Assembly: GCF_023115465.1 (NCBI RefSeq)
Contig: NZ_CP096034.1
Coordinates: 992,001 to 1,056,000 of the forward strand
Origin: Gottfriedia acidiceleris
GTDB lineage: Bacteria; Bacillota; Bacilli; Bacillales; Bacillaceae_G
Length of the DNA stretch: 64,000 bases
Direction: 5' to 3'
Below are positions 43,855-50,961 of the stretch, in pieces. The notes beneath the pieces are model-generated. The model ran no database searches, was not told the origin of the DNA, and saw only the letters and a list, made by a program, of their open reading frames with translations. Every line of letters starts with the position of its first letter. The stretch's first letter is position 1. Position numbers and translations under genes: made by a program.

Positions 43855-43920
43855 TTTTATTGAATAGTAGAACAGAATAATAGATTAATATTGTAATAGA
43901 AAATTTTGGAGGGAAATAAC

Positions 43921-44898
43921 ATGTCACGTAAAGTATTAGTATTAGGCGAAGTTCGTGAAGGATTACTACGAAATGTTTCATTTGAGGCAGTAAGTACGGC
44001 TAAAACAGTTGCTGAGGGCGGAGAAGTAGTTGCTGTATTAGTAGGTAAATCAGTTAGTGCATTAGCTACTGAAATGATTCAATACGGTGCAGATCGTGCA
44101 ATCGTTGTTGAAGATGAAAAATTAGCATCATATACTTCTGATGGATATTCTCAAGCACTTTTAGCAGTTATTGACCAAGAAAAACCAGAAGGTCTAGTAA
44201 TCGGTCACACAGCTTTAGGTAAGGATTTATCTCCTAAACTTGCTGCTCGTATGCAAAGTGGTCTTATTTCGGATGTTACAGCAATCGAAGTAGCTGGTGG
44301 AAATATTGTTTTCACTCGTCCGATTTACTCAGGAAAAGCATTCGAGAAAAAAGTTATGGTGGATCCATTTATTTTTGCGACAATCCGTCCAAATAACATT
44401 TCAGCATTAGAAAAAGATGCTACTCGCACTGGTGATGTAGCAACTCTTTCAGTTGAAATTAAAGACTTGCGTTCAATCGTTAAAGATGTGGTGCGTAAAG
44501 CGAGTGAAGGTGTAGACCTTTCTGAAGCGAAAGTTGTCGTTGCTGGAGGACGTGGAGTTAAGAGTGAAGAAGGCTTTAATCCATTAAAAGAATTAGCTTC
44601 AGTACTTGGTGCTGCTGTAGGTGCATCTCGTGGTGCATGTGATGCTAACTATTGTGACTACTCTTTACAAATTGGTCAAACTGGTAAAGTTGTAACACCT
44701 GATTTATATATTGCATGTGGTATTTCAGGAGCTATTCAACATTTAGCTGGTATGTCAAACTCTAAAGTAATCGTTGCAATTAACAAAGATCCAGAAGCTA
44801 ATATCTTCAAAGTAGCTGACTATGGAATCGTTGGTGACTTATTCGAAGTATTACCTTTATTAACAGAAGAATTTAAAGCTGTATTAGTTAACTCTTAA
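43921..44898 (+). CDS. etfA: Electron transfer flavoprotein alpha subunit
   Basis: A 325-residue EtfA. ATG at 43921 is preferred to TTG at 43906, which lies inside the GGAGGG ribosome binding site. The C-terminal FAD domain is intact: VVAGGRGVKSEEGFNPL, VGASRGACDANYC, QIGQTGKVVTPDLYIACGIS, and GAIQHLAGM. It is the last gene of the fad/etf operon. Its terminator hairpin is split by a small IS relic. Confidence 0.95.
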   Translation: MSRKVLVLGEVREGLLRNVSFEAVSTAKTVAEGGEVVAVLVGKSVSALATEMIQYGADRAIVVEDEKLASYTSDGYSQALLAVIDQEKPEGLVIGHTALGKDLSPKLAARMQSGLISDVTAIEVAGGNIVFTRPIYSGKAFEKKVMVDPFIFATIRPNNISALEKDATRTGDVATLSVEIKDLRSIVKDVVRKASEGVDLSEAKVVVAGGRGVKSEEGFNPLKELASVLGAAVGASRGACDANYCDYSLQIGQTGKVVTPDLYIACGISGAIQHLAGMSNSKVIVAINKDPEANIFKVADYGIVGDLFEVLPLLTEEFKAVLVNS

Positions 44899-44918: not shown

Positions 44919-45007
44919 GCCCACAAGAGCTTATGTAGTGACCTATAAAGTTAGTCTGTGTCTAACATTTGGGGTGCACTTCACTTAATATCTTGTGGGT
45001 TTTTTGT
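44919..45007 (+). terminator. etfA terminator with an IS relic in its loop
   Basis: Left arm GCCCACAAGA (44919-44928) and right arm TCTTGTGGGT (44991-45000) pair, followed by T residues to 45005. The loop contains a 50-bp IS-derived insert bordered by CTTA on both sides. Without it the loop would be eight bases (GCTTAATA). Confidence 0.85.
44934..44983 (-). mobile_element. 50-bp relic of the IS3-family element (both ends, no transposase)
   Basis: Bases 44934-44955 match the reverse complement of the right end of the element at 49374-50813 (TGTAGTGACC, then ATAAAGTTAG). Bases ~44957-44983 match the reverse complement of its left end (TGTCTAACATTTGGGGTGCA and on). The join lies at the shared GTTAG, as expected for deletion between short repeats. 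A perfect 4-bp target duplication CTTA (44930-44933, 44984-44987) flanks it. The orientation is opposite to that of the intact copy. Confidence 0.85.
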
Positions 45008-47667: not shown

Positions 47668-49332
<1,665 letters not shown>

Positions 49333-49425
49333 TTTCTCAAGCTGTAATACTAAAAGTAAAAACCATCCAGAAATGAAGTGCACCCCAAATGTTAGACACG
49401 ACTAACATTTGGAGGTGCATTTTTT

Positions 49426-49932
49426 ATGACTAAATTTACTACTGAACATAAATTAGCGGTAGTTATGCGTTATTTAGAAGGTAAGGAAAGTTTTCGTTCT
49501 ATTGGTAAGTTATTTGGAACGTCCCATGCTGAAGTGAGAAACTGGGTAGCTCAATATAAGGAAAATGGGATTAATGGCTTGCTTAAAAAGTCATATACAA
49601 GTTATTCGGTACAGTTTAAACTAAACGTATTAAAGTATATGAATGACCACGGGACGTCACCGAATGAAGCAGCTGCAATTTTCAATATTCCTTCCCCTAG
49701 AACGATTCGAAAGTGGAGGACTCAATTTGAAACACAAGGACAAGACGCCCTAGAATCAAAGAAAAAGGGGCGACTTTCCATGAAAAAAGAAACAAAGAAA
49801 ACTACACCCGTTGAAGGATCAATTGAAGAACTTCAAGCTGAAATAGAACGTTTACGCATGGAAAATGCATATCTAAAAAAGTTGAACGCCTTAGTTCAAA
49901 ACAAGGAAAAATCACGAAACAAGACAAAGTAA
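49426..49932 (+). CDS. IS3-family transposase OrfA
   Basis: A 168-residue protein with two helix-turn-helix units (SFRSIGKLFGTSHAEVRNWV and a second around SPNEAAAIFNIPSPRTIRKW), then a leucine-zipper-like helix (IEELQAEIERLRMENAYLKK). It binds the element's ends. A slippery A AAA AAG at codons CTA AAA AAG allows -1 slip into orfB. GGAGG precedes the ATG. Confidence 0.93.
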   Translation: MTKFTTEHKLAVVMRYLEGKESFRSIGKLFGTSHAEVRNWVAQYKENGINGLLKKSYTSYSVQFKLNVLKYMNDHGTSPNEAAAIFNIPSPRTIRKWRTQFETQGQDALESKKKGRLSMKKETKKTTPVEGSIEELQAEIERLRMENAYLKKLNALVQNKEKSRNKTK

Positions 49933-50777
49933 AAGTTGTCTATGAATTAAGGCATGAGTTTTCGTTAAAAGAACTTTTACTGTTAGCCAGTTTTCCGCGT
50001 AGTACGTTTTATTATTGGATGAAAAATCTAGAACGTCCTGATCCAGATGCAGAGTTAAAAGTGCTGATAAAAGAAATTTATGAGGAACACGAATGTCGTT
50101 ATGGCTATCGTAAAATTCGAGACGAGCTTACGAATCGTGGTTATAAAGTAAATCATAAAAAAGTTCAACGACCTATGAAAGAACTAGGGATAAAATCACT
50201 TGTGAAGGTAAAGAAATATCGCTTTTACAAAGGTGAAGTAGGTAAGATTGCCCCCAATATTTTAAATCGAAATTTTCAAGCTGAAAAACCAAATGAGAAA
50301 TGGGTTACAGATATAACTGAATTTAAATTATTTGGAGAAAAGCTATACTTTTCACCTATGTTGGACTTATATAATGGTGAAATAATTGCTTATACAATTG
50401 GTTCACGTCCAACTTTTTCACTTGTATCAAATATGTTAGAACAATCTCTTGAACGATTAACAGATTCCGATACACTACTAATTCATTCAGACCAAGGGTG
50501 GCACTATCAAATGAAAAAATATCGTAGTGCTCTTATTAAACGTGGAATCACTCAGAGTATGTCACGAAAAGGAAACTGTTACGATAACGCAGTAATTGAA
50601 AGTTTCTTTAGTATCATGAAATCTGAACTACTCTATCTTAAAGAATTTAACAGTGTCGAACACTTTAAACAAGAACTAGCTAAATATATAGATTACTACA
50701 ATAACAAACGAATTAAGGCAAAATTAAAAGGCATGAGCCCAGTAAAATACCGAGTTCATGCCCAACAGGCTGCCTAA
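49881..50777 (+). CDS. IS3-family transposase OrfB (DDE integrase domain), read by -1 frameshift
   Basis: The -1 frame is open from the slippery site at 49881 through an ATG at 50019 to 50777, so the product is an OrfAB fusion of about 450 residues. The HTH_21 region (HECRYGYRKIRDEL) precedes the rve domain with catalytic residues in VTDITEF (D), IHSDQGWHYQ (D) and DNAVIESFFSIMKSE (E). All three catalytic residues are present. It cuts and joins the element's ends. Confidence 0.92.
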   Translation, partial: VERLSSKQGKITKQDKVKVVYELRHEFSLKELLLLASFPRSTFYYWMKNLERPDPDAELKVLIKEIYEEHECRYGYRKIRDELTNRGYKVNHKKVQRPMKELGIKSLVKVKKYRFYKGEVGKIAPNILNRNFQAEKPNEKWVTDITEFKLFGEKLYFSPMLDLYNGEIIAYTIGSRPTFSLVSNMLEQSLERLTDSDTLLIHSDQGWHYQMKKYRSALIKRGITQSMSRKGNCYDNAVIESFFSIMKSELLYLKEFNSVEHFKQELAKYIDYYNNKRIKAKLKGMSPVKYRVHAQQAA

Positions 50778-50961
50778 TTGAAGTAACCAGTCTAACTTTA
50801 TGGGGTCACTACAAATTTTGGATGGTTTTTATTTTAAGCATTTTGAGAACGGTACCTATGAATTGTTCTCTAATTTGTGAATCAATGTGGTGGCCTATTT
50901 ACAATCTGAAGAAAAAAGAGAGGTCCCATAAAAGATTTACTTTTCAGAGACACCCTCTTTG

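Follow-up and report, generated by a model that had tools for sequence, protein, structure and literature searches.

The window, which is the whole stretch of 64,000 nucleotides of Gottfriedia acidiceleris DNA that was analysed in this study, carries a full-length insertion sequence (IS) behind an MFS transporter gene and a 50-bp miniature element behind another gene, each in the loop of a terminator hairpin (Table 1). The preliminary description of this locus had placed the IS between the arms AAAAACCATCC and GGATGGTTTTT of the terminator of the MFS gene. These coordinates were confirmed, and the terminator was found free of the IS in relatives.

Table 1. Features of the locus, with positions in the window
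Feature	Position	Strand	Evidence or remark
MFS transporter gene with the targeted terminator	47704..49332	+	Product named in the preliminary description
Interrupted terminator of the MFS gene, left arm; core AAAAACCATCC at 49358-49368	49346..49372	+	Site L001; empty orthologues
Full-length IS, IS3 family, IS150-like, 1440 bp; termini TG at 49374 and CA at 50813	49374..50813	+	Termini read from sequence; NCBIfam for OrfB
Terminator-like hairpin at the left end of the IS, which overlaps the Shine-Dalgarno sequence of orfA; T-run at 49420-49425	49375..49423	+	
orfA, helix-turn-helix part of the transposase	49426..49932	+	PF13518, PF01527
AAAAAAG, putative -1 frameshift site through which orfA and orfB would be fused	49875..49881	+	Sequence
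orfB, rve-type integrase core	50019..50777	+	PF00665, E=3e-24
Right arm and T-run of the MFS-gene terminator, core GGATGGTTTTT at 50820-50830	50816..50842	+	Site L001; empty orthologues
Left arm CCCACAAGA of the terminator that follows the gene at 43906-44898	44920..44928	+	
50-bp miniature element (left and right terminal repeats) in the loop of this terminator	44934..44983	-	
Right arm TCTTGTGGG of this terminator, then T-run	44991..44999	+	

The element belongs to the IS3 family by its transposase, which has an rve core (PF00665) and whose OrfB matches the IS3-family model NF033516 of NCBIfam with 317 bits (cut-off 160), and by its termini, TG and CA, which carry imperfect inverted repeats. 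Termini of this kind were present on both sides in most of 80 relatives. In the OrfB tree, the element falls into the IS150 group: the window lineage, groups g11 and g12, IS150 and plasmid relatives form one branch with 100/100 support, apart from the other groups, and the order within this branch was unresolved. The open frame of orfB reaches upstream to about 49842 and overlaps the frame of orfA at AAAAAAG, a slippery site of the kind known from IS150; a frameshift role for it here is presumed by analogy.

The element had been called active-looking. It is indeed full-length, but its activity is doubtful because conserved transposase residues are changed. OrfB position 116 is F in the window copy and S in 82/82 compared copies, position 99 is P in the window copy and I, L or V in the compared copies, and position 73, which is G in 79/82, is C in the window copy and F in the second copy of the genome (L002, 99% identical). 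The window copy lacks a clean 3-bp duplication, and only AA is common to both sides. Judging from its sequence, the window copy is a poor candidate for an active IS.

At the window site (L001), the hairpin has 25 pairs and its centre is 0.5 nt from the insertion. Relatives of the MFS gene were found in 13/13 genomes of the genus, and the terminators behind them were compared except in G011 (contig end), G003 and G007 (gene end not located). The terminator was uninterrupted in G001, G002, G008, G009 and G010; it was without the IS but had a different loop in G012, and another terminator stood at this position in G005. In the window genome and G006 it was occupied by a full IS, and in G004 by a 50-bp miniature. 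Empty counterparts were also found for three more sites of the window genome, namely L002 (duplication GGATT), L005 (duplication AAT; clean empty site in G006 only) and the miniature of the window. Because the orthologous terminators at these four loci are empty, the hairpins are older than the insertions. The idea that the arms are part of the element was rejected, as they differ from site to site and occur without the IS in relatives.

In two species, a full IS sits in the loop of the MFS terminator (49369-49373/50814-50819; also L272 and L271), and in a third species a 50-bp miniature does; the loop bases differ. It is possible that this loop is a hot spot, and whether there was one insertion or three remains undecided.

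The second element had been described as a relic in the terminator loop. Its location stood; its nature did not, since it is no decayed fragment and instead a miniature with both terminal repeats, flanked by a CTTA duplication, and the orthologous sites are empty in relatives. Comparable miniatures of 48-51 bp lie in terminator-like loops of relatives, at L064 (the MFS site of G004), L074 and L076. Because the miniatures are roughly palindromic, we infer that they lengthen the stem on insertion instead of breaking it.

To score the sites, we used a strict test, namely a strong hairpin (score threshold 20) with its centre no more than 8 nt from the insertion; both limits were chosen after the sites had been seen. 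A plain rank of duplex energy was too blunt for this purpose and was replaced by the centred-hairpin score. By that rank, 41/60 sites reached p<=0.05 in one run; a later run gave 49/63 for the IS150-like group, against only 1/5, 3/7 and 2/5 in groups g5, g6 and g9, respectively. A first fuzzy search for ends gave mostly noise, and a search of Rfam gave no match. All sites are survivors in genomes, and none is a fresh insertion.

The window genome has 12 IS3-family transposase matches at E<=1e-15, and 11 copies (L001-L006 and L160-L164) were counted, leaving out the partial twelfth. A strict hairpin was present at 10 of these 11; the exception, L161, scored 17.3. Five of the 11 copies are only 37-40% identical in OrfB. 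Under this test, the earlier figure of two out of two copies in terminator loops changes to these 10 of 11.

For the relatives, the best 80 loci out of a larger number of matches on named genome contigs were taken, from Bacillaceae, Paenibacillaceae and others. Ends were located by the terminal motif; both ends and both flanks were obtained at 54 loci, and 26 were dropped because an end was not recognised or the flank on one side was missing. Together with six copies of the window genome and three from further genomes, these gave 63 IS150-like sites, which are not all independent, with several per genome and with L001 and L159 (G006) being the same MFS site. The check proposed in the preliminary description, that most empty sites across copies should be hairpin loops, bore out its expectation: a strict hairpin was found at 49/63 empty sites, compared with 47/2520 random positions at the same loci (binomial P 1.5e-71). 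The median energy of the joined flanks was -18.4 kcal/mol for 60 sites and -8.0 kcal/mol for 709 mismatched pairs, in which the two flanks come from different sites; flanks thus pair best with their own partner. Flank pairing as a mere by-product of A/T-rich flanks was rejected on the mismatched flanks and the random positions.

The target duplication in this lineage was 3 bp at 40/63 sites and 4 bp at 9/63, so that 49/63 have the length expected of the IS3 family. Most of the 14 sites that fail the strict test are real insertions, because 11 of them carry duplications of at least 3 bp. Some have weak or wide-looped hairpins, and L083, L113, L128 and L136 look ordinary. The hairpin preference is strong and not absolute.

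More distant IS3 groups were examined in 91 further loci, oriented from regions picked by hand among the matches, mostly in multi-copy genomes, with the other matches left out. Ends were defined for 72 of them, and 69 were used after removal of one duplicate and two short flanks. Strict hairpins were found at 16/24 sites in g2, 2/2 in g3, 1/1 in g4, 2/5 in g5, 6/7 in g6, 3/3 in g7, 2/3 in g8, 3/5 in g9, 2/4 in g11 and 1/1 in g12, and at none in g10 (0/8) and g13 (0/3). With every Bacilli group counted, 87/129 sites pass, and in the hairpin-using groups 82/4720 random positions pass by chance. Copies lying in ordinary sequence at the chance rate had been named as the outcome that would refute hairpin targeting, and only g10 and g13 (0/11 together) behave in this way. 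These two groups, which were labelled negative after their flanks had been inspected, join at 100/100 in the OrfB tree, where the tool warned that long branches may mislead. Hairpin-loop target choice by the IS150-like lineage and by several more distant IS3 groups is supported.

The insertions are also precise. In the hairpin-using groups, the centre of the best hairpin in 90 nt was no more than 3 nt from the insertion at 64/117 sites, compared with 18/468 random positions, and no more than 10 nt away at 89/117 sites, compared with 53/468; in g10 and g13 together, the 3-nt distance was reached at 1/11. The insertion lies within the loop at 77/82 strong-hairpin sites. The median stem is 15 bp, and the median empty loop of the 77 sites is 6 nt.

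By a simple rule, an A-run, a T-run or both adjoin 72 of the 82 hairpins (both at 45, T-run only at 14, A-run only at 13), and 10 have neither. In some of these 10, the window site included, a run lies inside the extended stem, and five (L104, L177, L191, L211 and L217) are palindromes without any such run. Because 72 hairpins have runs and five have none, the targets are mostly, and not only, terminators. The counts of 14 and 13 mean that there is no orientation rule.

Several copies or relics (L103, L104, L111, L123, L151 and L067) lie, by eye, in or near GC-rich extragenic palindromes, some of which contain CAGCCTCCTC / GAGGAGGCTGA and resemble REP-type repeats of bacilli. The eight g10 copies at L237-L244 (G094) avoid hairpins, and several g10 flanks share, by eye, a spaced inverted motif like TAACGAA...ACGCTA, suggesting that g10 may use a fixed palindromic target sequence. 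L185, an element of a Klebsiella plasmid with an OrfB about 50% identical, lies in an apparent terminator (aaaccgcc / ggcggtttttt), and from this site the terminator-loop habit may reach Enterobacteria. At least short traces of the window IS occur in 13/13 genomes of the genus. PF01609 reached E<=1e-15 in 2/13 of the same genomes, and PF00872 reached E<=1e-30 in none; only these two were tried among other IS types, and our results lack a non-IS3 control set.

The left end of the IS has a hairpin of its own. In 48/53 distinct left ends, the stretch from base 2 to about base 50 has a folding energy of about -18 kcal/mol or below (median of all 53, -28.4); the hairpin is weak or absent in the other five, among them L110, which probably has a misplaced end. 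A T-run of at least 5 follows the hairpin before the orfA start in 42/53. In 24 left ends picked by hand, 15 pairs were predicted, 4 of them with compensatory changes. A generic terminator scan did not list this hairpin, which is probably due to the bulge in its stem. We infer that the left hairpin keeps the transposase silent when transcription reads through from the gene next to it, as would be expected because the element lives at gene ends. At tandem sites, the hairpin has no tendency to face the upstream gene (10 vs 18), and a role in restoring host termination was rejected on this orientation.

We are confident, short of certainty, that hairpin loops in DNA are the preferred target of the insertion machinery of this IS150-like element of the IS3 family, with hardly any restriction on the sequence of the hairpin. 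Most such palindromes in Bacilli are intrinsic transcription terminators. The placement in the loop, the length of the duplication, the empty sites, the varied stems, the absence of an orientation rule and the few insertions in reading frames were observed directly, and that the transposase itself reads the DNA structure is inferred. Elements of the IS3 family transpose through a circular intermediate, which we infer here as well. Probably, the transposase-bound circular IS DNA would capture a palindrome, possibly in the form of an extruded cruciform or single-strand hairpin; its loop would be cut in a stagger of 3-4 bp, and the element would be left between the arms, usually just past the stop codon of a gene. 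In this way such elements can spread through a genome and spare most of its genes, as the preliminary description had suggested.

Several other explanations were considered. The IS might insert widely, with only harmless insertions past gene ends persisting. The gene setting agrees with such survivorship: among 62 classified IS150-like sites, 28 lie between convergent reading frames, 2 between divergent ones, 18 in tandem pairs of one sense and 10 of the other, 2 are undetermined, and only 2 are inside an open reading frame, although frames were called crudely, by length and without annotation. However, we see no evident selective reason why a loop should be preferred over positions 20 nt to either side, while 64/117 sites have a hairpin centre within 3 nt, and g10 and g13, whose hosts belong to the same class, show 0/11. 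We therefore regard survivorship as very improbable.

It is also conceivable that the A-run, the GC-rich block and the T-run of terminators are read as sequence and not as a fold. The runs at 72/82 hairpins, their presence inside the stem in several of the other 10, and the C-rich left arms would fit this. Against it, five of the 82 hairpins are free of runs, one of them a palindrome of 24 pairs, and the insertion tracks the symmetry centre whatever the loop, which makes sequence recognition rather improbable to us. RNA polymerase stalled at the terminator might instead expose the DNA or recruit the transposase. Terminators are indeed most of the targets, and the median distance from stop codon to insertion is 58 nt in the hairpin-using groups together (n=121). 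In the IS150-like group, however, the T-run points one way at 9 sites and the other way at 8, without preference; this test is weakened by the large number of bidirectional terminators, and we hold transcription-coupled targeting to be unlikely without dismissing it.

The closest well-known relative of the window element is IS150 of E. coli, whose OrfB is 52% identical and lies in the same supported clade. From 25 listed matches, out of 3429 matching records, 11 chromosomal stretches were sampled; the 13 sites scored consist of 12 of IS150 and one of ISKpn8, with two plasmid copies counted. Unlike the window lineage, these have a strict hairpin at only 1/13 sites and are otherwise suggestive by eye, with clear arms at L260 and L261 (GCCCCAGG/CCTGGGGC; GCCCC/GGGGC). 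One IS150 site lies inside envZ. According to a table in PMC1525189, one of two IS150 copies in E. coli CFT073 is at a REP sequence. An annotated hok gene adjoins IS150 in 8 of the 11 stretches (L257-L267), and these sites are partly identical, four being at hokA and two at hokE. PMC5419217 reports that IS150 newly inserted at hok and ldr loci of evolving lines, and interprets this as adaptive. We offer hairpin targeting as an alternative to this reading.

IS3 is described as one of the largest IS families (PMC6211511). We are evenly divided on whether structure-guided insertion is general to much of this family, explains both the Bacilli terminators and the hok/ldr hot spots, and was lost or replaced in the g10-g13 clade. 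If it is true, the recognition of hairpins or cruciforms makes intrinsic terminators a standard parking place for IS3 elements in Bacilli and explains why hok and ldr loci of E. coli are hot spots of IS150, which has so far been taken as adaptive inactivation. Scattered oddities such as IS1397 and IS1272 would become a testable rule of the IS3 family, that DNA shape is read on insertion. This would help to explain how such elements multiply without damage to genes. Whether terminators in living cells form cruciform or hairpin DNA could then be studied in a natural system. A gene-sparing insertion tool is a possible use.

IS1397 reportedly inserts in the loop of palindromic units. Palindromic REP sequences are described as insertion targets of IS3-family elements in PMC1525189, where the specificity is attributed to the transposase. 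IS1397 and ISKpn1, whose targets are palindromic units of enterobacteria, use extragenic palindromes as the window lineage does. Insertion in extragenic palindromes is shared by our hairpin-using groups. The target of IS1397 and ISKpn1, however, is one repeated sequence family, whereas the window lineage uses varied stems, mostly of terminators. Stems varied between the sites of this study, and a single repeated target family was not found among them.

Group IIC introns are mobile elements guided by terminator hairpins. Unlike the window lineage, they are retroelements, use another chemistry and go in next to the stem-loop. In literature titles and opening abstract lines, we found no report of terminator-loop insertion by the IS3 family; one of the main IS reviews and two papers on IS1397 were not covered, and an earlier mention is possible. 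According to PMC4923244, IS1272 inserts in hairpins, among which many are terminators; part of the stem is deleted and no duplication is made. Like the window lineage, IS1272 and TnSha1 (IS1182 family, staphylococci) use terminator hairpins in either orientation and with low sequence specificity, and in this use of terminator hairpins our sites agree with them. IS1272, however, has a transposase of another family and inserts in the stem (PMC4923244), whereas the window lineage inserts in the loop, keeps the arms and makes a 3-4 bp duplication; those of our sites that were compared with empty ones have loop bases duplicated and no stem deleted. We rate hairpin targeting itself as known from IS1397 and IS1272, and its broad form found here, insertion of IS3-family elements in terminator loops, as new.
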